Source: Candidatus Omnitrophota bacterium
GTDB taxonomy: Bacteria > Hinthialibacterota > Hinthialibacteria > Hinthialibacterales > Hinthialibacteraceae
Length of the DNA stretch: 64,000 nt
Reading direction: 5' to 3'
Assembly: GCA_013177805.1 (NCBI GenBank)
Contig: JABLXU010000016.1
Coordinates: 62,001 to 126,000 of the forward strand
The position numbers and the translations under genes were made by a program. The notes below the pieces were generated by a model. The model was not told the DNA's origin and ran no database searches. It was given only the letters and a program-made list of their open reading frames with translations. Below, in pieces: positions 48,561 to 64,000 of this stretch (within the stretch, counting starts at the first letter, position 1; each line of letters begins with the position of its first letter).

Positions 48561-51500
48561 ATGCGATCGCTTGCCCCCGGCGCCCGGCGCCTCTCCTTGC
48601 ACCATATCACCATCCGCGTTCCTTGGCATGACGGCGGGTGGAGTGGATCGGTCTGCGCCCGCCCCTCCGATAATACGAGTTGCCTTATTCTGAAGCGGAT
48701 CGGTGAGGAAAAAAGTGACGAGGCGGAAGCCCGTTGCGCCGGCCAGCGGTTTGATCAGCTTGACGTCAGGGATTTCCCGCCCTGTGTGGAAGAACGGGTG
48801 TCGTTCATGGCGCCTTTCGAACTGCGCCTCAAAAAGACTCATCCCTACACCGAGATCTATCCGGAAACGCACGGACATTTCGCTCCTACAAGCTTTCCCC
48901 ATCCGCCTTATTCAGCTGCCTGCGTGCCTTTTCGGTGGATGCTGCGGAAAGCGGTCGAGGGAAATCCGGACAACGGCGAGATGGGTCTTGCGGAACGGTT
49001 AAAACTCGGATGGATTCCGGACCTCGAACCGGATATTCGTAACCGAAGGGGCAATGACGTGGATACTGCGTGGATACAGGAACGCGAAAACCAGCTGACG
49101 CTGCTTGATACCTTTTTCAGTGCTATCCAGCCAGAAAAATCACTCTGCTTTTTCTACGCCAAGCGGACGCCCCTTTCCGATCAATCCCGCCGCGTGATCA
49201 TCGGAGTGGGCCGGGTGCTCTCAATCGGGAATGCGGCCGAGTACGCCTACAGGGTAAAGAATCCCCCGCTTCGTTGTGTGCTTTGGGAGCGGAACGTGGG
49301 CCATTCCATCCGCCCGGATTTCACGGATGGATTTTTGTTTCCATATGCGGCCATCCTTGCTCAGGCCGCAGAAGAGGGATTCGATCCCGAGGAGTTCGTA
49401 GCCTTTGCCCCGCTCGAATATTTCGACGCGTTCTCGTACGGCTCGGAACTGCTGACGCACGACGGCGCGGTGGCTTCGCTGATCGCTTGCGCCGCCGCGT
49501 TGCATCGCATCCGGGGACGATTCGAAGGGCCATGGGATCAGGTTCTGGCGTGGATCGATGCGCAGCTCAACCGGCTTTGGCAGGCCCGGGGCGCGTTTCC
49601 GGGACTGGGCTCGGCGCTCTCGGCCTTCGGGTATGAATGGGGTTTCCAACATGGGAGCCTGCTCGCTTATGAGATCGAACTGTGGCGGGAACGGGAAGGC
49701 AGCAATCCCTGGGAAATGGTCGATACCGTAATGGAGGAACCTTCCAAACTCAACAGCCCTGTCGCAAATCTACTCACGGCGGGATTACGCAAAGGCTGGA
49801 AACGTCTCGCGGCCGAACGGCGCGCGCTGCTGGAACTGCTCAGCCGGTGCGCCATTTCCGCGGAACAAGCGCTGCGGATCTATGACCGGACAATCAGAGA
49901 GAGAGCGGGTATCACAATATCCGATGCAGACTTCCTGGCCAATCCCTATCTGCTTTTCGAGTGTGACCGCCAGGCGCTCATTCCCATCCCGTATGGGGTG
50001 GTGGATCGCGGCCTTTTCCCCGATAAGGCCGTCCGTGAGTCCTTCCCGGTGCCCGAACCCAGCCGCGTCGATGATCCAGCCGATCTGCGGCGCGTGCGGG
50101 CGTTAGTCGTGGATATCCTGGAGGAGGCCGCCCAGGACGGCCATACCTTACTCCCCCGGAGTTGGATTATCCAACGGGCCCGGAATCGTTCGCTGCAGCC
50201 GCCTTGTCCCTTAGGGGAAAACGTGCTGGAAGCCTTGGAGGAGAATCTCGTTCCTATTATCGAACGCGTGACCACGCGCAGTGATGAGCCTGCGTATCAA
50301 GTGGACCGCCTCGCGGAGTGTCGGACAATCATCCGCCAGGAGGTGCAAAAACGCCAGAAAGGAAAATCCCATGCTGCCAGCCACCCGTGGCGCGATCTCG
50401 TGGACCAGGTTCTGGACCGGGAGACAGCCCAGAACCACAGCCGTTCGCGGGATCCAGCCGAGCGGGAAATCGAGGAACGGGCCCGCGCGGAGAAGGCCGC
50501 CGCGCTCGAGCAGCTGTTCCGTTCGCGCCTCTCTGTCCTGATCGGCCCGGCGGGAACCGGTAAGACCACGCTCCTTCGCATGCTTTGCGGGATTAGAGAG
50601 GTCGCGACCAAGGGTCTCCTGCTCCTCGCCCCGACCGGCAAAGCACGGGTTCGGCTGGAAGAACGGACGGGTTTGCGCGGGTTGGGCTATACCCTCGCCC
50701 AGTTCTTGATCCGCTACAAACGATACAACGGTGAAACCGGTGAGTATTACTCGAATCGCAAGGCGCCTCGGTGCAACGAATATCGAACCGTAATCATGGA
50801 CGAATGCTCCATGCTGACCGAGGAGCAACTCGCGGCCTTGATCGACTCCCTCGCGAATGTGGAACGGCTCATCCTTGTGGGCGATCCGCGGCAGCTGCCT
50901 CCCATCGGGGCGGGACGACCCTTTGTGGATATCGTGAACTATCTGAAGCCCGCGAATGTTGAAACCATGTTCCCCCGATGTGGACCGGGGTATGCGGAAC
51001 TCACCATCCCGCGCAGGCAACAAGGTGAGGGGCGCGAGGATGTGCTGCTGGCAGCCCACTTCAGCAGACAGCCGCTCGATCCTGGTGCCGATGCCGTGTG
51101 GAACCTGCTCATGTCCGAAAGCCACGGCCGCATATGGCTCGTGCAGTGGAATCATCCCCAAGAGTTACATGAAAAGATCCTCGCCGAACTGGTGCGGGCA
51201 TTGAGTCTCGCGGGACCGGAGGACGAGTTGGGATTCGAAATGTCGCTCGGGGGCACACCGTATGAGAACATCTCTCGGGCCTTCTTTTGGCCCCAAAACG
51301 AAACCCGGGAAGGGGCTGCGGCAAAAGCCGAAGCCTGGCAGATTTTGTCACCGGTCCGGGCGGGATTAGCCGGCGTGGATGCCCTGAACCGCATGATCCA
51401 GGACCGCTTCCGCCGGCAGACGCGGGAATTAGCCGAAGCGGAGGGCTTTCGGCGCAAGGTCCCCCGGCCCATAGGCCCACAAATGCTTCTCTACGGTGAC

Positions 51501-52391
51501 AAGGTCATCAATGTCATCAATCAACACCGCCGGGACGTGTACCCCACACCCGAAGGGGAAGCCTATATCGCGAACGGAGATATCGGAATTGTCGTCGGCC
51601 AATACAAGACGCAAAAAATGAAAAGCCTTCCTAGGAAACTGGAAGTGGAATTCGCCACCCAGCCAGGGTATAAGTACGTTTTCCATACCAGCGAGTTCGG
51701 TGACGAAGGTGCCAATCCACTGGAACTCGCCTACTGCCTCACCGTGCATAAGACCCAAGGGAGTGAGTTCGGCCTCACTTTCGTTGTGTTGACCAATCCC
51801 TGCTGGCTGCTTTCCCGCGAGCTGCTGTACACCGCGCTCACGCGCCACCAGGAACGGCTGGTGATTCTCCACCAAGGGCCGCTCGCCGAATATCGCCGCT
51901 ATTCCGGGGATGAATACTCCGAAATCGCGCGGCGCATGACCAATCTCTTTGCCGATCCTCTGCCTTGCGAGGTCACGGCCGGGGCGCAATCGCGTTTCCT
52001 GGAAGCAGGCCTGATCCATCGAACGGAACGCGGGGAACTCGTCCGATCGAAGTCGGAGTTGGTCATTGCCAACATGCTGTTTGCCCGGGGGATCGATTAC
52101 GCGTATGAGCAGCCTCTGGTCTTGCCCTCGGGGCGCACGCTGTATCCCGATTTCACGATCGCCGATTCAGCGCGCGGCGTAACGTACTATTGGGAGCATC
52201 TCGGCATGCTCGACGATCCCGCGTACCGCGCGCGGTGGGAGCGTAAACGGCAGGAGTACGCCGATGCCGGTATTCTCCCCTGGCCCGAGGGAGGTGGGGA
52301 GGAAGGAACCCTGATCGAAACCGGGGACGAACCCGGCGGCGCCTTGGACGCTGAGCGCATCGCTAGAGTGATCGAGGGAATGATGGCCTGA
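48561..52391 (+). CDS. RecD-like superfamily 1 helicase with putative C-terminal PD-(D/E)xK-type nuclease domain
   Basis: 'GPAGTGKTTLL', 'VIMDECSML', 'LVGDPRQLPPIGAG', 'LTVHKTQGSEF', 'LLYTALTRHQERLVIL'; C-term 'RSKSELVIANMLFARGIDYAYEQPLVLPSGRTLYPDFTIADSARGVTYYWEHLGML'. Confidence 0.88.
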   Translation: MRSLAPGARRLSLHHITIRVPWHDGGWSGSVCARPSDNTSCLILKRIGEEKSDEAEARCAGQRFDQLDVRDFPPCVEERVSFMAPFELRLKKTHPYTEIYPETHGHFAPTSFPHPPYSAACVPFRWMLRKAVEGNPDNGEMGLAERLKLGWIPDLEPDIRNRRGNDVDTAWIQERENQLTLLDTFFSAIQPEKSLCFFYAKRTPLSDQSRRVIIGVGRVLSIGNAAEYAYRVKNPPLRCVLWERNVGHSIRPDFTDGFLFPYAAILAQAAEEGFDPEEFVAFAPLEYFDAFSYGSELLTHDGAVASLIACAAALHRIRGRFEGPWDQVLAWIDAQLNRLWQARGAFPGLGSALSAFGYEWGFQHGSLLAYEIELWREREGSNPWEMVDTVMEEPSKLNSPVANLLTAGLRKGWKRLAAERRALLELLSRCAISAEQALRIYDRTIRERAGITISDADFLANPYLLFECDRQALIPIPYGVVDRGLFPDKAVRESFPVPEPSRVDDPADLRRVRALVVDILEEAAQDGHTLLPRSWIIQRARNRSLQPPCPLGENVLEALEENLVPIIERVTTRSDEPAYQVDRLAECRTIIRQEVQKRQKGKSHAASHPWRDLVDQVLDRETAQNHSRSRDPAEREIEERARAEKAAALEQLFRSRLSVLIGPAGTGKTTLLRMLCGIREVATKGLLLLAPTGKARVRLEERTGLRGLGYTLAQFLIRYKRYNGETGEYYSNRKAPRCNEYRTVIMDECSMLTEEQLAALIDSLANVERLILVGDPRQLPPIGAGRPFVDIVNYLKPANVETMFPRCGPGYAELTIPRRQQGEGREDVLLAAHFSRQPLDPGADAVWNLLMSESHGRIWLVQWNHPQELHEKILAELVRALSLAGPEDELGFEMSLGGTPYENISRAFFWPQNETREGAAAKAEAWQILSPVRAGLAGVDALNRMIQDRFRRQTRELAEAEGFRRKVPRPIGPQMLLYGDKVINVINQHRRDVYPTPEGEAYIANGDIGIVVGQYKTQKMKSLPRKLEVEFATQPGYKYVFHTSEFGDEGANPLELAYCLTVHKTQGSEFGLTFVVLTNPCWLLSRELLYTALTRHQERLVILHQGPLAEYRRYSGDEYSEIARRMTNLFADPLPCEVTAGAQSRFLEAGLIHRTERGELVRSKSELVIANMLFARGIDYAYEQPLVLPSGRTLYPDFTIADSARGVTYYWEHLGMLDDPAYRARWERKRQEYADAGILPWPEGGGEEGTLIETGDEPGGALDAERIARVIEGMMA

Positions 52392-52866: not shown

Positions 52867-54564
52867 ATGTTCAAGGTTCATATCGAATTGCACGGCATGC
52901 AGGCGTTTTTGTTTTCCGTGCCGCGCCTGCGTTCCATGATCGGGGCCAATGTGCTGCTGGGGGAAACCGTCCGCTGTAGGATGAGGGAAAAGGCAAAATC
53001 TGGTTGTGTTTCGCTGGCAGGGGACGAGTACAAGGAGATCGCCCAGCTACACCCCGAACACGATCCCGATGATCCGCTTTCGTCCTCCGAGGGCGTCGAT
53101 GATCCCCGCGCGCTCTTTCTCGAGGGAATTCTGGCCCGTGACGGCGGCCATTTCGCCGCCGTGTTCAAATCCAAGGATGAAATCGCCCGTTTTCAGAAGG
53201 AGATCGAGCCCCTGATCGCTTCTGAACTGCCAGGGGTAACGATCGACTGGAAGATCACCGACTTAAGCAAGCCGCCTAAAGAGAACCAAGTCGATCTGTC
53301 CAAAATACCCCAACGCGGGATCGAACTTGTCCACCTGCCGTGGTTCCAAGTATGCCAGGAAACCGGCCATGACCCCGCAGTGGAGGTCATCACGTATCCT
53401 CGTGAGGAAATACGTTTTGTTTCCCAGACGGCAGCCAAAACTCATCATAAAGGAGATGCATTTTTCAGAAACCAGGGAAAGGACATCATCAGCCTGTTGA
53501 AGGACCAACTGCCGCTCAAGGATCTCCAGGCGCCCGTAACGGTTCAGGATCTTTGTGCCGGAGGATACCTGGCCGTTATTCACGCTGACGGGAATGGCGT
53601 GGGTAAGCGGTTTAAGGACTGGCAAAAGCGATGCGAAAAGGAGATAAACGACCGCTTTGCCAATGAGCCGATGGTGAAGCAAAACCTGGCCCGGGAAGCC
53701 TACGGGGAACGATTCTATCACGGGATGCGCGTCGCGGTGCGGCAAGCGGTCATCGAGGCCTTGAAGAGCACTTTCCATGAGTACGAAGGCAAATACCAGC
53801 CGTATCAGCTGCTGATGCTGGGGGGCGACGACCTCCTGATGATCTGCCAGGCCAAGTATGCGCTGGCGTTCATTGTGGATTACGCCCGCGCCTTAAGTAC
53901 CCGGCCTTTGGCGGACGGGCAACCGCTCACTATCGGCGCGGGGGTGGTGATCAGCAAGCCCAATTTGCCCTTCCACCGTCTGCAAGACGTGGCGGATGAA
54001 CTAGCCTCCAGCGCAAAGCAACGGTTCCGGAATTCCGCCGTACCCGCGTCCGTCGTGGATTGGATGGTAGTTACGCAATCCGAGACGGAAAGCCCTGAGG
54101 CCGCCCGCCGCCGGGACCAGTGGATCTGCTACAAAGTCAACGATCAAATCGAAGAGTTAGCGCTTAGCGTCCACCCCTGCCTGGTTCTTGGGGAGCAGCC
54201 GGATTCTCTCGAGTTCCTGTTGAAAAAGGCGGAGGCGCTGCGGGCCGGGATTGGGAAAACCAAGGAGGAGGATCCCTTGGGCAAACAAGGCCGGGCCGCG
54301 CGCTCCCAGTTGCGCTATCTGGCCAGCATCCTGAACCAAGGCCGCCGTTTCGCAGATTTGGCTTGGTTGGATCTCCCCGACGCCACCCGCGAGACTTTGG
54401 CAGAAGCCTTGGGAATTCCTCCCAACGGACCTGACGGGGTTGGCTCGCTTTGGCAACGCGTACCGGAATCCGGAAACCGGTGGAAGACCTCCTTGGCAGA
54501 TTTGGTGGAACTCTACGAGATTTCTGCGCTGGGTGGAAAGGGAGATAACGGCCATGACCAGTAA
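52867..54564 (+). CDS. cas10: Cas10-like palm-domain protein lacking an N-terminal HD domain (type III-D-like)
   Basis: 'YLAVIHADGNGVGKRFKDW' and 'YQLLMLGGDDLLMIC' palm motifs; starts directly at 'FKVHIELHGMQAFLFSVPRLRSMIGANVLLGE'; first gene of a RAMP operon. Confidence 0.88.
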   Translation: MFKVHIELHGMQAFLFSVPRLRSMIGANVLLGETVRCRMREKAKSGCVSLAGDEYKEIAQLHPEHDPDDPLSSSEGVDDPRALFLEGILARDGGHFAAVFKSKDEIARFQKEIEPLIASELPGVTIDWKITDLSKPPKENQVDLSKIPQRGIELVHLPWFQVCQETGHDPAVEVITYPREEIRFVSQTAAKTHHKGDAFFRNQGKDIISLLKDQLPLKDLQAPVTVQDLCAGGYLAVIHADGNGVGKRFKDWQKRCEKEINDRFANEPMVKQNLAREAYGERFYHGMRVAVRQAVIEALKSTFHEYEGKYQPYQLLMLGGDDLLMICQAKYALAFIVDYARALSTRPLADGQPLTIGAGVVISKPNLPFHRLQDVADELASSAKQRFRNSAVPASVVDWMVVTQSETESPEAARRRDQWICYKVNDQIEELALSVHPCLVLGEQPDSLEFLLKKAEALRAGIGKTKEEDPLGKQGRAARSQLRYLASILNQGRRFADLAWLDLPDATRETLAEALGIPPNGPDGVGSLWQRVPESGNRWKTSLADLVELYEISALGGKGDNGHDQ

Positions 54565-56314
54565 ACGCTTTCGGGTGACCATCACCTTGCAGGAAGATAT
54601 GCACAGCGGAACCGGCATGGGCGGATCGGTCATCGACGCCTGCCAGTTCCGGGACCGTGAGGGCAAACCCAGGATCCGCCGGACGCACCTCAAAGGCTTG
54701 CTGCGGGATGCGGCGGAGGAATTGGTGGAACGCCATCCGGGAACGCGGAATGAGCTGCGTGAGAAAGTGGATCAACTTTTCGGTACCGCCGGGAAATCCG
54801 TATCCCCCCAATTGCTCTTCCATTCACTGCGGCTGGAAAATGGGGATAAATCTTTGCTCTGGAGTTCGGCGTCCCGCCAGCCCTACAGCCGCATGCCCCA
54901 GGAGGATTTCTTGCGCACCATCGAATTCGTGGGCGCAGGTGCTGTCTTCAGCGGTGTACTCGAGCTGCGGGATTCCACATTGGAAGATCTGCTCCGGCGT
55001 TGTTTCCAGCACGTGGACCGGATTGGCAGCCGCCGGCAGCGCGGAAACGGTCTGGTGACCATCGCTCTCGAGCCTGTGGATGAACAGAACGCACTCCCAG
55101 TCAACAGGCCGGATGAAACCCGCAAACGGCTCCGGCTCCGGCTGCGCAATCTCGATCCGCTGGTCCTGCCCGCGACCGGCCAGCCGGGCAATATCATCCC
55201 CACTGAATGCTATATCCGGGGAGGGCAGTTGCTGGGCGCCTTTGTGGCTTGGCAGATTCAGTTTCAACAAAACGATGCGTGGCTGCATGATCCCAGCGTC
55301 TCATTCAGCAACGCCTATCCCTTGCCCTACCAATATATACTCGATGCCACACGTTTCGAGGCTTGCGAAGTCGTCCCTATCCCCTTGAACCTGGGAATTC
55401 AACAACAACCTTCTCCTCATCCCGAACCCGACTGGCCGCATTGGGCGAAATCCGACCATCCCTGGCGTACCTTCAATAATACCGATATCGACTTGATGGA
55501 ATCCCATGATGATGACGAGGTGAATGAACAACCTTCCGATCCGAAACCACCCCAAAAAGGCAAGCGGAAAAAACCCCACGACTGGGAATTCCTGTTCCGG
55601 GAAGGCAGCAACGGCTGGATCCGTTACAAACCCGGCATTGGTTTGTACATGCGCAATGATGCCGGATCTTTCCGGAGACGGCAAAGGACAGAATCGGACG
55701 CGACATCTAATCTCTTTTCGGTAGAAGGCATCATGGAAGATACCCGGTTTCAGGCTGATTTGGATTTCGCCACGGTGGAAGACGCGCTCCGTTTTCAAAG
55801 CGATTTCGCCCCCGTCTTGCGGGGTGAATCCTGGCTGATTCTCGGGCGCGGGGGATGTCCCGTGGAAGTGGAGGCTGGCCAATGGATCGCGGAGCCACCG
55901 GTTCCCTCCAACGGAGCGGACTTAGCGGATTCGTTGATCCTTTTCTTGGAGAGTGATCTCTTGGCGCGGTCGGAAACGCTGGGATTTCCAGACCGGCTCA
56001 CTCCGGACGTGATAGGGCGATTGGTGGAACAAAAAGAAGAGGCCGGCCGGGAAGGGCTTTCAATTCAGGTCGAGAAAGACTTCACCCGCACACAGCTCGT
56101 CCACGGTTTCAACGCCGCGTCCGGCTTGCCGCGCGCGCCCGTGCAGGTGTTCCGGCGGGGATCCATCCTGCGTCTGACGGGAGCGGGTGTGGCCACGCTG
56201 CGCGAGGCTTTGAGGAAGAAACGTGCGTTGGGGGAACGGACCAGGGATGGATTCGGCCGGTTCCGGCTGGATTTTGCTCCGCTCAAAGACCAACCGCTTC
56301 CGAAGGAGGAATAA
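54554..56314 (+). CDS. RAMP protein: N-terminal Cas7-like plus Csx10/Cas5-like domains
   Basis: 'VTITLQEDMHSGTGMGGSVIDACQFRDREGKPRIRRTHLKGLLRDAAEEL' and C-terminal 'LGERTRDGFGRFRLDF' glycine-rich loop; ATG overlaps cas10 stop. Confidence 0.8.
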   Translation: MTSKRFRVTITLQEDMHSGTGMGGSVIDACQFRDREGKPRIRRTHLKGLLRDAAEELVERHPGTRNELREKVDQLFGTAGKSVSPQLLFHSLRLENGDKSLLWSSASRQPYSRMPQEDFLRTIEFVGAGAVFSGVLELRDSTLEDLLRRCFQHVDRIGSRRQRGNGLVTIALEPVDEQNALPVNRPDETRKRLRLRLRNLDPLVLPATGQPGNIIPTECYIRGGQLLGAFVAWQIQFQQNDAWLHDPSVSFSNAYPLPYQYILDATRFEACEVVPIPLNLGIQQQPSPHPEPDWPHWAKSDHPWRTFNNTDIDLMESHDDDEVNEQPSDPKPPQKGKRKKPHDWEFLFREGSNGWIRYKPGIGLYMRNDAGSFRRRQRTESDATSNLFSVEGIMEDTRFQADLDFATVEDALRFQSDFAPVLRGESWLILGRGGCPVEVEAGQWIAEPPVPSNGADLADSLILFLESDLLARSETLGFPDRLTPDVIGRLVEQKEEAGREGLSIQVEKDFTRTQLVHGFNAASGLPRAPVQVFRRGSILRLTGAGVATLREALRKKRALGERTRDGFGRFRLDFAPLKDQPLPKEE

Positions 56315-56383
56315 AACAATGATAAACCTCCCGCGAATATCCGGCTCAGTCGCGCCGAGACAATCTACGAAACCGCCAAGCAA

Positions 56384-56713
56384 ATGGCCGGAAAATTGCC
56401 GAAGGGGAATCAGGGGCCAAGTATCTCGCAATGGCAAGACGCCTTGAATCACATCCGGCAGTGCCGTACCTATGAGGAAATCAAGGAATACACGAAAGGG
56501 CTGAAAACCACGGAAAAACTAGGCGGTTTGAAATGGAAAAACGTGCGGTGGGACGAATTGGAACAAGCCATCGAGACGCTGCTCCATCGTTCGTTATTCG
56601 CCACGAAACCGGATCAGTCCGATGCGGAGAAGGCCGCATGGGGCCAAGAGTATTATACGTATCTGATCCGCCGCCATGTACTCTCGCTGAAAAAGGAAAG
56701 GAAACCGTCATGA
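56384..56713 (+). CDS. Small helical Cas11-like subunit (true start uncertain; in frame with upstream gene after TAA 56312-56314)
   Basis: 109-aa charged helical ORF between RAMP genes; open reading continues upstream to 56315 as NNDKPPANIRLSRAETIYETAKQ-M. Confidence 0.6.
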   Translation: MAGKLPKGNQGPSISQWQDALNHIRQCRTYEEIKEYTKGLKTTEKLGGLKWKNVRWDELEQAIETLLHRSLFATKPDQSDAEKAAWGQEYYTYLIRRHVLSLKKERKPS

Positions 56714-58266
56714 GCCAGGGCACCCCCTATCGTACGTTGTTTCTCGGTGAATTGGCGCAGGAATCGGCCTTAAGCCTTGGCGGAACGGCCGGCGAAGCCT
56801 TCGGCGTGGACGAGGCCTTCTGCCGGGATGGATTGGATCGGCCCACCTTGCGGGGAGAAGCCTTGGCGGGGGCGCTGATCGCCACGGCGCGGACCCTGTT
56901 TGATCCAAATAAATTACCGGAATCCATTTCGGCGGGATTCCGCGGCAAGGGCAGCGGGCATCCGCCGGAATCGCTGTGGCGGCTCTTCAGTTCGCATCCG
57001 CGTTCGGTTCCCGCCAGCGAACCGCGCTCCGGCGTGGGCTTGCGGCAGGAGACCGCCGCACCGGCCGCCGGGGTCCTGTTCGATGTGGAAACGCTTCCGC
57101 CCGGCACCGTCTGGCCGTTTTGTCTCGAGGTCAATACGTTCCGGGATCCTGACGGGATCGCGGAAAAAATCGCCGCGTGGTCCTTGTTGGAATGGACCCG
57201 CGGACGTTTGTGGATCGGGCGCAGTCCGGCGCGGGGCTTGGGCTGGATGACCTTGAAAAATCTGCAATGTTTCCGCCTGACCGGCGAGGAACACCACGAT
57301 GAGCTTTGGCCTGACAGCCGCTTTCCCATTCAAGACGTACTGGAACGCATCCGGCAACAGGTCACGCCCATTGATGCTAAGGATTTTCAGGCGGTTCTGG
57401 ATCTGGATTCCTGTCCTCTCCTCCCTCCAGAAGAACGGACCCAGTATCTTGAAATCACGGGAACGGTGGAATGCGGATTTCATGAAGACGGGTACGGCTG
57501 GGACGCGCTTTCCCTGGGCGGGCATGAGACCAATCGGTCGCTCATGCCCTGGAATGCGGCCCATTTATGCCTGCCCGAAGGCCGGGATCTTCAATGGATC
57601 AGGTCCGGCGATGAAGGAAAGGCAGAACCCGATTCGTGCATTGTGTACACGCAACGAAGCGGCTCCCCGCCGGAACCGTTCGTGCCAGGCTCCAGCATCC
57701 GGGGTACGATGCGCCATGCCCTCTCCCGCATGAAGCGGGAACAAATGACAACGGTTTGGGATCCCAACGCCAATCCCCGGCCGAAGAACCAGGATCCCGA
57801 TCCGGTCGAGGAAACCTTCGGCGGCCTGGATGGGAGTTCTCTCATTCTGGTACAGGACGCCTATCTCGCCGATGCTCATTACCTCTTGGCCTGGCTGCAG
57901 CATCACGCCGAGGATGAATTCACTCAGGGGGCTTATGAGTCGGCCAAGTTCGACAGCGTGGCCCTGCTGCAAGGAAAATTCCACTGGAAAATCGTGGCAC
58001 AGATTCATGCCTGGAAGCCCGATATGACTCCGAATGACAATATGAAAATATTGGTGAACCAATGCCGGGAACAGCTCCAATCCGTCTTACGCCTGGCCTG
58101 CCACGGTCATCTGCCCCTGGGCGGAAAGCAGTGGAGCGGGATGGGCTGGCCGAAATGGACCGTCACCTCGGCGAAGAAATTCACCGCGGGTGATAATCAT
58201 GGAGATGAGTTAAGCGAATTCTTGCGTCTCATGCCGGGGGAGGATCCGAATCATGTCCAACCATGA
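56710..58266 (+). CDS. Tandem RAMP protein, Cas7-2x-like
   Basis: Two RAMP-like units: 'FGVDEAFCRDGLDRPTLRGEALAGALIATARTLF' and 'PFVPGSSIRGTMRHALSRM'; ATGA overlap. Confidence 0.75.
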   Translation: MSQGTPYRTLFLGELAQESALSLGGTAGEAFGVDEAFCRDGLDRPTLRGEALAGALIATARTLFDPNKLPESISAGFRGKGSGHPPESLWRLFSSHPRSVPASEPRSGVGLRQETAAPAAGVLFDVETLPPGTVWPFCLEVNTFRDPDGIAEKIAAWSLLEWTRGRLWIGRSPARGLGWMTLKNLQCFRLTGEEHHDELWPDSRFPIQDVLERIRQQVTPIDAKDFQAVLDLDSCPLLPPEERTQYLEITGTVECGFHEDGYGWDALSLGGHETNRSLMPWNAAHLCLPEGRDLQWIRSGDEGKAEPDSCIVYTQRSGSPPEPFVPGSSIRGTMRHALSRMKREQMTTVWDPNANPRPKNQDPDPVEETFGGLDGSSLILVQDAYLADAHYLLAWLQHHAEDEFTQGAYESAKFDSVALLQGKFHWKIVAQIHAWKPDMTPNDNMKILVNQCREQLQSVLRLACHGHLPLGGKQWSGMGWPKWTVTSAKKFTAGDNHGDELSEFLRLMPGEDPNHVQP

Positions 58267-58813
58267 CCAGGGAAATCACAATCAACTATCTGTCACTCTC
58301 TATCAACGCTGGGGGCGCAGCAAACAAACGTTGGATGAGTTTGTCCTGGAATATCTGAATCGGCATCCGGAAGCGTATCAATTCTGGGCGGAACCGCGGC
58401 CGGGAAGAAATCAGGTCACGCAACAATTTGAACGGGTGCGGGACTATCCCTTTCTGGGAAGCCGGTTTAATCCCACGCATCCCGTGGAGGAAATCCGACT
58501 CTTTTTCGCCACGAAAATGTTGCACGTCCTGAGAGATGAAGCGGGCGGCTGCCGCTGGTTTGAATGCTCGGAAGATCCCTTGGCGGATGACCATCTGGGA
58601 ACGGAGAATTCCAAGGGTAAGTTCGATTGCCACGATCATGCCATGTATACCTTGCAGGACCGGGCCCGCTTTTTTGGAAAGCCCAATCCAGACGGCGCAG
58701 TAGGGGATGGGTACGGCGATCGGGTGACCATCCGCGAATACCGCTACCCGGGCACTGGAAAGACCTTCACCTGGCGCATCATGCCAAAAGTTACCGGAGG
58801 GGATCAATCATGA
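58253..58813 (+). CDS. Type III-D accessory protein, Csx19 position
   Basis: 186-aa ORF overlapping both neighbours; order (Cas7-2x - this - Cas7-insertion) matches the III-Dv operon; family not recognised by motif. Confidence 0.45.
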   Translation: MSNHDQGNHNQLSVTLYQRWGRSKQTLDEFVLEYLNRHPEAYQFWAEPRPGRNQVTQQFERVRDYPFLGSRFNPTHPVEEIRLFFATKMLHVLRDEAGGCRWFECSEDPLADDHLGTENSKGKFDCHDHAMYTLQDRARFFGKPNPDGAVGDGYGDRVTIREYRYPGTGKTFTWRIMPKVTGGDQS

Positions 58814-61191
58814 AAAAGGGCAGAATTCTTAAAAGAGATAATCTCGGTTTATTGATCGAATCCGAAAAACAAAAATATCGCGCCGAAATGTCAAAGGCCG
58901 AGGCCGCAGCTTATAAGGAAGGCATGCCAGTTGCCTTCGACCTCGCCACCAACGAGAAAGGCAAGGAGGTGGCGGTCAATGTGCAAACCGTTGCGCAACC
59001 CGAACCACACCAGACAACCGCTCCCGCCATGTCCAATCCAGACGTCTACAACCATCAGGCAAAGAAAGATGTGATTCGCCCTCCCTACCACTTTGTTCCC
59101 ATTCCTACGAAGGGCGGTCAGGTCGTGGGCGTGACCGATACTCCGGTTTTTCATGACGGCGCGCAAGCCGGGAAGGGAAATCTATGGTCCGGGGAACTGC
59201 GCTGCGCGATGACAGCCTTGACCCCCCTGCTCGCCGCCAACGACGAGTACGAGGCCCGGCATGTCAAAGGCGCGGTCCAAAAAGAAGAGAGCGAGAAAAT
59301 CCAATTGCCGGAATCGTGGGGCATCCAAACCCCGGTGGATCCCGACAAAAAAGTGCTGGAGCCGTTGCGGTTGCCGGACGGCCCGGATGGTGTCTTAGGC
59401 CGCGTGCTGATTTCCGGACGGTCGCTCAAAGGCATGCTGCGCCACAGCCTGGGCGCGCTGTTGGCCGCCCCCATGGAGCGGGTGCGGGAACACACGTTTT
59501 CGTACCGGCCCAGTTTGATCATATCCGATAGAAATTGGGATAAATGGGAAACTCTACCCGCCATCGTCACGAAAATCACTTCGGGGAAAGCACATCTTTG
59601 GATACTCAAAAAGTTAATCCATCTCAAGTACAAGAAAGAACAAGCACCCGGCGGCTTGGAATTCATCCACCATACAGGAATCGATGGCGACTGTATTCTC
59701 GGAAAATTGCATGAAAAAAAGGAACTGGCTTCCGCGGATCGAAAAAGAAAAATCAGTCCTGTTCGTAATTACACGAGAGTCTATGTTACACAAAGAGATT
59801 ATGGACAGGGCTTTCAGGGGGAAATCTACCTAAATGATGAATCCTACCAAAAAACGTTGGATCATCTCGGTGATGATAAGGATGGCCATCTGAGAAAGGA
59901 ACATCCGTTGTATGACAAAACAAAGTTCGAGGAAATAAAAAAACGCATTCAGAATATGAAGAAAACCCCCTTTCAGGCAGAGCAGGTCATTTTCGTTGAA
60001 ATCTCAAAAAGCAAAGGTTCACGAAGAATCGCCTCCTGGGGGAATCATGTATACTACCGTTGGCGTTATGCAGGGACTGTACGCCGTAAAAATGGGGAAG
60101 AACGGCTCGTTCTCCTTCCCATGCCGAAGGAGAAAATCCAGCCATCCAATCACTCCAACCACATTCCTCCCCAGGAACTCAGCGCTGCCCGTCTGCTCTT
60201 TGGCTATGTCTCCGATGACAAGAATCCTGGAACCAAGAACATCGGGCAGGGGGATTTTCAAAAATTATCCGGGCGGCTGGCTTTCAATATGGCCGTGGAA
60301 CAAATCCAGGACCCGGATCCGGGAAAGCGGTTCGTGAATCACGACAGCGAATGCGTGGTCCCCCTGAAAATCCTCGGACGGCCCCGGCCCAGCGCGGCGG
60401 AATTCTATCTGCGGCAGGATGAAAAAGAAATCAAAAAACGCCATGATGGCGGCGTGATGGTCACGTATGGCGACCTGGCCGGCGATGATCCCGTGGGCGA
60501 ACTGAACGGCCGCAAGTTCTATTTGCACCAGCCTGATGCCGCCAAGGATCCCTCGTGCTACATGGACAAATCCGAGGAAACCGTCACGGGCAATCAGGCG
60601 GCCCTGGGCCGGTACGTGTCTCAGCCTGGTTCCACCTTCCGCTTCACGTTGCGTTTCCGTTACCTGCGTCCCTGGGAACTGGGCGCCTTGCTGTTTGCCC
60701 TGGAACCCGAACGCTGGATCGATCGGCTGCTCGCGCGCCTTCCAGACTGGAAGTCCATTCCCTCCTACGTGGAATCCATCCGCGCCGCCGCCGGCCGGCA
60801 GCCTCTTTTCTCGCTGAAACTGGGCCATGGCCGTCCCCTGGGCCTGGGCAGCATCCAGATTCACGCCGACCGCACGCTGTTCCTGGGAACGGACCAACCG
60901 TTTTTCGAGGATGACGCCCGTCTGGAACAGGCCATTCAATCTTTCGCGCAAAAACTAGGCGAGGCCCCGGAACGGGAAGAGGTGCTGTTGCAATGGTTAA
61001 AAATCCACCGCTATGCCGGCCGCGCCCGCGCGGACTATCCACGAGTATATAAAGACAATAAAAGAAAAACCTTGAAACCGGGAGAGCAAATCTTCACCTA
61101 TCACCAAAAACTCCGCCAGCGACACGCCCGGGGCCGCCGTTGCCAAGGCCCGGGCAACCCAGATCCGGATTTGTTGCAGCCCTTGGATTGA
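58810..61191 (+). CDS. TIGR03986-like RAMP protein (Cas7-insertion-like)
   Basis: 'VLISGRSLKGMLRHSLGALL', 'YLRPWELGALLFALEP', 'FSLKLGHGRPLGLGSIQI'; ATGA overlap. Confidence 0.82.
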   Translation: MKKGRILKRDNLGLLIESEKQKYRAEMSKAEAAAYKEGMPVAFDLATNEKGKEVAVNVQTVAQPEPHQTTAPAMSNPDVYNHQAKKDVIRPPYHFVPIPTKGGQVVGVTDTPVFHDGAQAGKGNLWSGELRCAMTALTPLLAANDEYEARHVKGAVQKEESEKIQLPESWGIQTPVDPDKKVLEPLRLPDGPDGVLGRVLISGRSLKGMLRHSLGALLAAPMERVREHTFSYRPSLIISDRNWDKWETLPAIVTKITSGKAHLWILKKLIHLKYKKEQAPGGLEFIHHTGIDGDCILGKLHEKKELASADRKRKISPVRNYTRVYVTQRDYGQGFQGEIYLNDESYQKTLDHLGDDKDGHLRKEHPLYDKTKFEEIKKRIQNMKKTPFQAEQVIFVEISKSKGSRRIASWGNHVYYRWRYAGTVRRKNGEERLVLLPMPKEKIQPSNHSNHIPPQELSAARLLFGYVSDDKNPGTKNIGQGDFQKLSGRLAFNMAVEQIQDPDPGKRFVNHDSECVVPLKILGRPRPSAAEFYLRQDEKEIKKRHDGGVMVTYGDLAGDDPVGELNGRKFYLHQPDAAKDPSCYMDKSEETVTGNQAALGRYVSQPGSTFRFTLRFRYLRPWELGALLFALEPERWIDRLLARLPDWKSIPSYVESIRAAAGRQPLFSLKLGHGRPLGLGSIQIHADRTLFLGTDQPFFEDDARLEQAIQSFAQKLGEAPEREEVLLQWLKIHRYAGRARADYPRVYKDNKRKTLKPGEQIFTYHQKLRQRHARGRRCQGPGNPDPDLLQPLD

Positions 61192-61425: not shown

Positions 61426-63033
61426 GTGATGATCTGTGGTATTGTGTTGTTAACCGCTGTGGGGAAAACGGATTTGAAAATTCTAATACGAAAAGAGGAT
61501 CAATTGGCCTGCGCCGAAGTGGATGGGGGGATACGTGAACTTCATGAACAATTGCTCAACGGAGATGTGCAATGTCTTTTGCAGGTTACGGCTTCATTAC
61601 CTCTTGAAGAATCCTATAAATACAAGGTTGATTGGAAAGAGGGTTCGTTTCATAACTTGCCATCGGGATATGACATAGTGCGGGAAGACAACCGGTATGT
61701 TTTCATTCCAGTGAAACTGGCGTCGGTGGTCCGTTCTCTTCGTGAAAAGAACAAATCGGTTGTGGCGTGTGTTGTTTTCGCGACGCATCGTAATGATCCT
61801 TCCAAATTTAAAAATGAACCTGTTTCTGCGGGAATGTTAATTGCCCGCTGGCTGGCAGAAGAATTCCGGTTGGAACCCGGCAGATCGCCTGAGGATATCG
61901 GCATTGGGAAAAGCGGATGGATTAATTACCTGGATGGCGATATGCTGGCTTGCGGGAAGGGGCGTGATTATCCCGTGAACCGGGAAGGCGTATGCCGCAT
62001 CGATAGGGCCATCAAAACCTTAGCCCGTCCGGAGTATTGGGCGTGTTTGTCCGTTGGTGGAGGTTTGCCGGAGATGAAAGAGCCCATCAAGGCGTGCGCC
62101 CAATTTCATTTCCGAAACCGCGTTCATATATGGCAAGACCCAGAATTCAAGGAAGATAAAGACTGGATACTGCCAACCCACATCCCACCTTCGCCTACTG
62201 AATCTTTCCGAATCCGCCATTATGCCCTCGAGATGATCCGCCGGGGCGACTTCACCGGCGCTTACGCGCTGGCCTCTCCCTTGGAAAATGATCCAATGGA
62301 ATGGCAATGGGTGAGAAAAATAAAATCCGCACATAAATATCTGACTGGAATTTTAACCGCTTCTTCTGGTTTACCTTTTTCTTTAAGCCGATTGATAGAA
62401 CCGTCTAATCCGCGCTGCCTGTCATGTGCCTTGCGAGTTGAATCCTCTTTGCAAACCGGGCGGATTCCTGAAGCAATCTCCTGGACCTGTACTTTTTTTG
62501 ATGCTGCATTAATTGATTTTATAGTAAAAACACTCAAGCCAGATAGTATCGATGATCTGCGTAAAGTAATCACCATTGCCGCCGGTGTGCGGCTTGATAA
62601 ACGGCTTATTGAAAAAATAGACAATTCCATATATGGTTGCCTGAATCGTATCCGAGAGAGGCAATATGAATATCGGATCGGTGGGAATTACACTAGAAGG
62701 TGGTTGGAAGTAATTCAATCAAAATCGCTTACGCAATTTCGGAAAGCAATCGATCCATATAAAGGTAAACAAGTCCACATGTCTCCACTCAAATTACGAA
62801 ATATTTTAATGCATAGCCGAGTGACACAAGAATACATGGCTGAAGCCAAAAGTGTTTTTATTAGCCAAGGCCTTTGGGCGAGCAAGGAAAAAACTATGAA
62901 TGGATTCAAATTTTTGAAACAAATTTTGGTGCAGAATTTGTTCACTGAGTTAGGAATCGATCATGTTGAGAATTATTGGAACACTTTCATTGAGGACCTA
63001 TCCAATGAACTCAAAAATTACACGATTCAGTAA
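61426..63033 (+). CDS. CARF-HEPN-like protein, putative Csm6/Csx1-type cyclic-oligonucleotide-activated RNase
   Basis: N-term 'GIVLLTAVGKTDLKILI' and 'YWACLSVGGGLPEMKEPI' CARF-like; C-term 'SPLKLRNILMHSRVT' fits HEPN R-x4-H. Confidence 0.6.
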   Translation: MMICGIVLLTAVGKTDLKILIRKEDQLACAEVDGGIRELHEQLLNGDVQCLLQVTASLPLEESYKYKVDWKEGSFHNLPSGYDIVREDNRYVFIPVKLASVVRSLREKNKSVVACVVFATHRNDPSKFKNEPVSAGMLIARWLAEEFRLEPGRSPEDIGIGKSGWINYLDGDMLACGKGRDYPVNREGVCRIDRAIKTLARPEYWACLSVGGGLPEMKEPIKACAQFHFRNRVHIWQDPEFKEDKDWILPTHIPPSPTESFRIRHYALEMIRRGDFTGAYALASPLENDPMEWQWVRKIKSAHKYLTGILTASSGLPFSLSRLIEPSNPRCLSCALRVESSLQTGRIPEAISWTCTFFDAALIDFIVKTLKPDSIDDLRKVITIAAGVRLDKRLIEKIDNSIYGCLNRIRERQYEYRIGGNYTRRWLEVIQSKSLTQFRKAIDPYKGKQVHMSPLKLRNILMHSRVTQEYMAEAKSVFISQGLWASKEKTMNGFKFLKQILVQNLFTELGIDHVENYWNTFIEDLSNELKNYTIQ

Positions 63034-63045
63034 GGAGTGGTTGCC

Positions 63046-64000
63046 ATGGTTCAACGGATTCAACGGATCTTGATCAGTTGGGTAGGCAATACGGATCTAA
63101 AAGCATCGGAAAAGATCTCTCCTCAAACCGCGGTTAAATACGATGAGATCGGCCCGATTGCGCGCATCTTGTTGCATGAAGACGAATATGGATTCGATCG
63201 AGTGATTTTAATTAGTGATCACAAGTCTGACACGATTGACCGATATCAAAACTGGTTATCCGAATTGAAATTGCAAAAAAAACCCCAATGTCTAGTTCAT
63301 TCTGTAAAGCTCCATTCGCCAACGGATCTTGATGCAGTCATGACGCATGTCCTGAATGTGCTTGATATTTATTTGCCTAATGAAGACAGTCAGGATATCG
63401 ATTTGTTCTTTAATATCAGTTCAGGAACCCCGGCCATGTACGCCACCTGGTTGTTTCTGGCACAGAAAGCATACCCTGCTGTGCTTCTGGAAAGCTATTT
63501 TAAAAATGGCCAAAGTCACGTCATAAAAAAATTCGTTTCTCCAGAATTACTAACCCGACCATCCCGGATTCCTGCATTCGCTGAACTTTCCCAGGAGATC
63601 CCTCCAGAACATCGCAAGCGAATCGAAAAAGCCTTCGCGTCTATTATTGGAGAATCTCCGGCTATGAAAGCATGCCTTCGGAAGGCGAAATTTATTGCTT
63701 ACCTATTATCCCTGGAGAAACAACCAAAAAATGTGTTACTGTTGGGCGAAAGTGGTACCGGTAAGGATTTGTTGGCGAAGGCCATTCATGAATCATCGCG
63801 TCCCGGCAAACCGTTCATTTCTCAAAATTGTTCTGCCATTCCTTCGGAATTATTTGAGTCCGAGTTGTTTGGGCATGTGAAAGGCAGTTTTACCGGCGCG
63901 ATACAGGATAAAGAAGGACTCTTGGAACGAGCGCGGGGAGGCACAATCTTCCTAAACGAGATTGGAGATATCGATCCCCGCCATCAGGCCAAGTTATTGC
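63046..64000 (+). CDS. Sigma-54-dependent activator with N-terminal RtcR/CARF-like domain (3' truncated by window end; not in the ORF track)
   Basis: My translation: '[17 protein letters not shown]...[22 protein letters not shown]...', then '[23 protein letters not shown]', '[13 protein letters not shown]', '[12 protein letters not shown]'. Confidence 0.88.

Follow-up and report, generated by a model that had tools for sequence, protein, structure and literature searches.

Type III-D CRISPR systems have been discussed as intermediates between many-subunit and single-protein effectors, and the III-Dv effector assembles on a 37-nt crRNA. The III-Dv effector of Synechocystis PCC 6803 (PDB 8s9t, 8s9u, 8s9v and 8s9x) was described as containing one copy of each subunit, with the Cas7, Cas5 and Cas11 domains of its fused Cas7-Cas5-Cas11 protein joined by flexible linkers some 20 residues long, and III-D1 as the multi-gene, unfused form with the same operon order (PMC11026444). 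The window, the whole stretch of 64,000 nucleotides analysed here, comes from a metagenome assembly of a Candidatus Omnitrophota bacterium (93 contigs, 98.3% complete, 5.2% contamination) and was found to contain a III-Dv-like type III CRISPR effector operon. The gene order, cas10, cas7-cas5 followed by cas11, cas7-2x, csx19 and cas7-insertion, is shared with Synechocystis and is followed at the locus by genes for CARF-HEPN, cas2, a reverse transcriptase and cas1 and by a CRISPR array. The overall sequence similarity to the Synechocystis system was low, and the window differs from it in a TAA within the linker that severs the Cas11 domain.

The effector genes were found on the forward strand. 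The cas10 gene (52867-54564, 565 aa) was matched by PADLOC Cas10 (E 7e-78) and contained GGDD, followed by the Cas7-Cas5 part (54554-56314, 586 aa, TAA at 56312-56314), which was matched by PADLOC Cas5_IIId and Cas7_IIId and by NCBIfam Csx10; the Csx10 match (TIGR02674, E 6e-13) was under the NCBI cut-off and the Cas5_IIId match had an E of 3e-27. The double Cas7 gene cas7-2x (56710-58266) contained two RAMP regions (RAMPs, Csx7, Cas7_IIId), followed by csx19 (58253-58813, PADLOC Csx19 E 1e-11), cas7-insertion (58810-61191, TIGR03986 E 2e-58, above the cut-off) and a predicted CARF-HEPN accessory nuclease (61426-63033, PADLOC CARF_HEPN E 2e-98) with an R-x4-H motif. The Cas10 large subunit together with Cas7/Cas5 RAMP subunits places the system in type III, and the Csx10-type Cas5 and Csx19, in which it resembles III-D1, place it in subtype III-D. 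Unlike III-D1, the window keeps Cas7 and Cas5 fused, and cas7-2x and the insertion-bearing cas7 are III-Dv traits. The single Cas7-Cas5-Cas11 polypeptide of III-Dv, present in four homologues, is interrupted here by the TAA in the linker. No damage was visible elsewhere in the system, namely in the Cas10 cyclase motif, the Cas7 subunits, Csx19, CARF-HEPN, the adaptation genes and the identical repeats.

The Cas7-Cas5 ORF ends with GAG GAA TAA, and its frame was found to stay free of stops from 56315 through the Cas11-like domain to the TGA at 56711-56713, both as given in the preliminary description. Past the TAA, this frame reads NNDKPPANIRLSRAETIYETAKQ-M(56384)AGKL... and remains open until that TGA. 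Its first part (56315-56383, forward strand) is a start-less stretch that contains the linker and helix 1 of Cas11, followed by the rest of the Cas11 domain (56384-56713, forward strand; 109 aa from the first in-frame ATG), which has no Shine-Dalgarno sequence. No ATG, GTG or TTG was found in the Cas11 frame from 56315 up to 56384, the only near-cognate codons there being ATC at 56339 and 56363, and no in-frame start with a ribosome site was found upstream of 56384. A Shine-Dalgarno sequence, AAGGAGG (56303-56309, forward strand), overlaps the last Cas7-Cas5 codons (KEE) and serves an ATG at 56319, 9 nt after it. This ATG was indeed, as previously noted, out of frame with Cas11 and opens only 42 codons (56319-56447, forward strand), the product of which had no similarity to Cas11 (shuffle p 0.62). 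The GGAGG of the Shine-Dalgarno sequence can pair with a CCTCC 17 bases later (56305-56331), with the stop and the ATG looped out. The junction DNA had no match in viral_contigs.

The codon-usage score of 56315-56383 was +6.9 bits in the Cas11 frame vs -15.2 and -20.8 in the other two frames, and the encoded peptide resembled the helix 1 region of the homologues (combined shuffle p 0.005, mainly from Marinomonas, p 0.002). From this coding composition and resemblance it follows that the 23 codons before the ATG were translated until recently, or still are. A Shine-Dalgarno match of at least 7 bases before an ATG was found at 11 of 460,020 coding-interior positions vs 11 of 370 long-ORF starts (3%); as such pairs are rare inside genes, the ATG at 56319 looks like a real start, though its frame is off by one base.

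The 132-aa open stretch had no match in the Pfam, NCBIfam or PADLOC libraries, and a phmmer search of the PDB gave no informative match. By tblastn it matched the C-terminus of the fused homologue of a second genome of the same family (27% identity, E 3e-6; target L010). A model built from a four-sequence alignment contained five helices (pLDDT 74), and the top three Foldseek matches in the PDB were the III-Dv Cas7-Cas5-Cas11 chains 8s9x, 8s9v and 8s9u, with a probability of 0.98-0.99 but an E of just 0.06-0.13, followed by a 121-residue chain of a III-A Csm complex. The modelled stretch is a predicted helical bundle matching known Cas11 small subunits. The joined subunit matched 8s9t_A with an E of 7e-17 over 863 columns; the full-length fold was of low confidence (pLDDT 46) and was used solely for secondary structure and this fold match. 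The library searches would suit a chance neighbour that is not Cas11 and shares the frame by accident, but the tblastn match, the Foldseek matches and the gene order conserved across all relatives make such a neighbour extremely improbable. The assignment of the three domains to the III-Dv Cas7-Cas5-Cas11 subunit, proposed earlier, is thus upheld by the fusions of the homologues and by the Foldseek matches of the Cas11 part and of the joined subunit. A search of the genome for a second cas11 found none.

In the joined numbering of 719 residues, the TAA stands at residue 587, within a predicted coil (573-593) that lies between the last predicted Cas5 strand, ending at 572, and the predicted helix 1 of Cas11 (594-612). 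The break lies at a domain seam: Cas7-Cas5 is complete, and the Cas11 coding sequence is preserved, helix 1 included. Helix 1 is predicted at residues 7-25 of the 132-residue open stretch, in which the first in-frame ATG (56384) encodes Met 24; a start there, inside helix 1, would delete all but the end of the helix.

The four close full-length homologues of Cas7-Cas5 were all found to be unbroken Cas7-Cas5-Cas11 fusions of 754-788 aa. The Omnitrophota SURF_12 metagenome-assembled genome of the same family (QZKN01000011.1) contained a syntenic operon with all subunits at 27-41% identity, in which the single, unbroken gene (754 aa) was 37% identical in Cas7-Cas5 and 27% in Cas11. The same operon and domain order were found on pTs485 of Ca. 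Thiodictyon syntrophicum (unbroken fusion, 765 aa) and in the two Riflebacteria L017 (unbroken, 763 aa) and G203 (unbroken, 788 aa). In a more distant genome of the window's family (G004) the gene was a single long ORF, and Marinomonas contained a separate Cas7 and a joined Cas5-Cas11; the gene order was common to all relatives. In a tree of seven subunits, the window grouped with the four fused genes (100/100), with the branching inside that clade left unresolved. No split homologue was found in about 1,000 genomes, which yielded just two additional full-length relatives, and no relatives were recovered by a single-sequence scan of genome_contigs, by an alignment scan of viral_contigs or in phages. 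The distribution among relatives makes it very likely that the gene was fused ancestrally and split later; the derived break of a fused gene suggested at the outset agrees with the four closest homologues being unbroken, one of them in the same family.

The comparison covered 448 long, non-overlapping ORFs from a 786-kb sample of the same assembly; same-frame coding after the stop without a start codon at the junction was found once, in Cas7-Cas5 itself; frame agreement alone has a chance of 1 in 3. Seven other break candidates were rejected as ordinary overlapping genes, the starts of which precede the stop. A single break among 448 ORFs speaks against a high assembly error rate and is still compatible with one single error.

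A single lesion at the Cas5-Cas11 linker, due to a recent mutation or to an error in the consensus of the metagenome assembly, is somewhat favoured as the explanation. The ancestral subunit would have been fused as one protein and would now be broken in the flexible linker, and the sequence as written would make Cas7-Cas5 yet no full-length Cas11. The lesion may have arisen by two routes, to which this estimate applies jointly: a one-base indel just after the ATG at 56319 of a cas11 gene already split, or a nonsense change in a gene that was still fused, in which the Shine-Dalgarno sequence and ATG would be present by coincidence. The first route draws on the rarity of Shine-Dalgarno matches of at least 7 bases before an ATG inside genes, since such a start would agree with a frame off by one base if a single base had been gained or lost just downstream of that ATG, whether in the cell or only in the consensus. 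In a rough weighing the two routes come close together and both fit. A lesion accords with the unbroken fusions of the relatives, with the position of the TAA in the predicted coil, with the lack of a standard start that would give helix 1, with the Cas11-frame coding of the stretch before the ATG, with the single such break among the 448 ORFs and with the intact adaptation genes and identical repeats. Against it, the cut lies exactly where it is harmless to folding, in a linker of about 20 of 719 residues that a random change would hit with a chance of about 3%, and the lack of another break in the sampled genome indicates low rates of error and decay. Where made, Cas11 would be expected, by analogy with Synechocystis III-Dv, to sit on the Cas7 backbone and to bring arginines close to the sites of RNA cleavage.

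The fission may instead be a working one, with Cas7-Cas5 and Cas11 assembling on the crRNA as two proteins, as in III-D1, and Cas11 starting at ATG 56384, perhaps coupled to upstream translation via the GGAGG/CCTCC hairpin; this is held to be a minority possibility. The split lies exactly at the linker, III-D1 is a multi-gene form with the same operon order (PMC11026444), and starts without a Shine-Dalgarno sequence of at least 4 bases were found in 88 of the 370 long ORFs. The start at 56384, itself of this kind, would however discard a stretch that keeps coding composition and similarity to homologues, and with it all but the end of the predicted helix 1, so that the earlier idea of reinitiation at a downstream start, applied to this ATG, may hold at the price of that helix; a split relative was never found. 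The hairpin is predicted around the junction but was rejected as evidence, being no better than shuffles, and a CCTCC in the equivalent position follows 2.5% of all GGAGG in the genome. Programmed recoding, by which readthrough of the TAA or a -1 frameshift from ATG 56319 would yield the fusion or full-length Cas11 in controlled amounts, is quite improbable. The frame is preserved across the stop, the Cas11 frame continues open past the TAA and an excellent Shine-Dalgarno sequence serves the out-of-frame ATG, but the features of a recoding site were lacking: among the TAA contexts of the genome, in which TAA terminates 150 of 441 genes, TAAA is the most frequent, no in-frame slippery heptamer was found and the downstream RNA structure (z-score +0.68) was no better than shuffles. 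The programmed readthrough put forward in the preliminary description is therefore unsupported. The arrangement was absent in the relatives found, no literature on recoding in cas genes applicable to this junction was found, and with one copy per subunit in III-Dv (PMC11026444) a low yield would starve the complex. That the III-Dv subunit has come apart naturally and still works, with Cas7-Cas5 and Cas11 as separate proteins and Cas11 made through coupled initiation or recoding across the out-of-frame start in the linker, is regarded as unlikely. A plain lesion or consensus error, omitted from the explanations first proposed, although a missing base was named there among the points for checking, is in our opinion likelier than a working fission.

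The break marks a genuine domain boundary in a fused protein that is already known, and the finding is modest. If it were a true un-fusion at the linker, it would show that the path to single-protein effectors can reverse, and a lineage with a split subunit would test the need for the covalent Cas11 fusion. Should a lesion be all there is, the case shows why reads need checking before evolution is drawn from one stop codon.

Past the window end, on the same contig (G000 contig C8, L042), the consecutive genes cas2, reverse transcriptase and cas1 (L042:14994-17229) adjoin the array. All three were intact, and the reverse transcriptase contained YADD (RVT_1 E 5e-36), an arrangement of reverse transcriptase-linked spacer acquisition with a III-Dv-like effector. 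The CRISPR array (L042:17526-18143) contained at least 9 repeats, identical over 36 bases (GTGGCATACCATTCCTGGTGATGACAGGATAGAAAC), and reaches the contig end. The type III effector genes are immediately followed by a gene (window 63037-64000 and L042:10038-11612) for an RtcR_PspF2-type CARF-sigma54-AAA regulator, possibly a cyclic-nucleotide-sensing transcription activator. The genes after it (L042:12214-14871), which may form its target operon, encode a vWA protein and, by weak matches, a NYN-domain protein and a PARP-like ADP-ribosyltransferase. Just upstream of the effector operon, the window (48561-52391) contained a 1276-aa RecD2/UvrD-like helicase with long extra N- and C-terminal regions.
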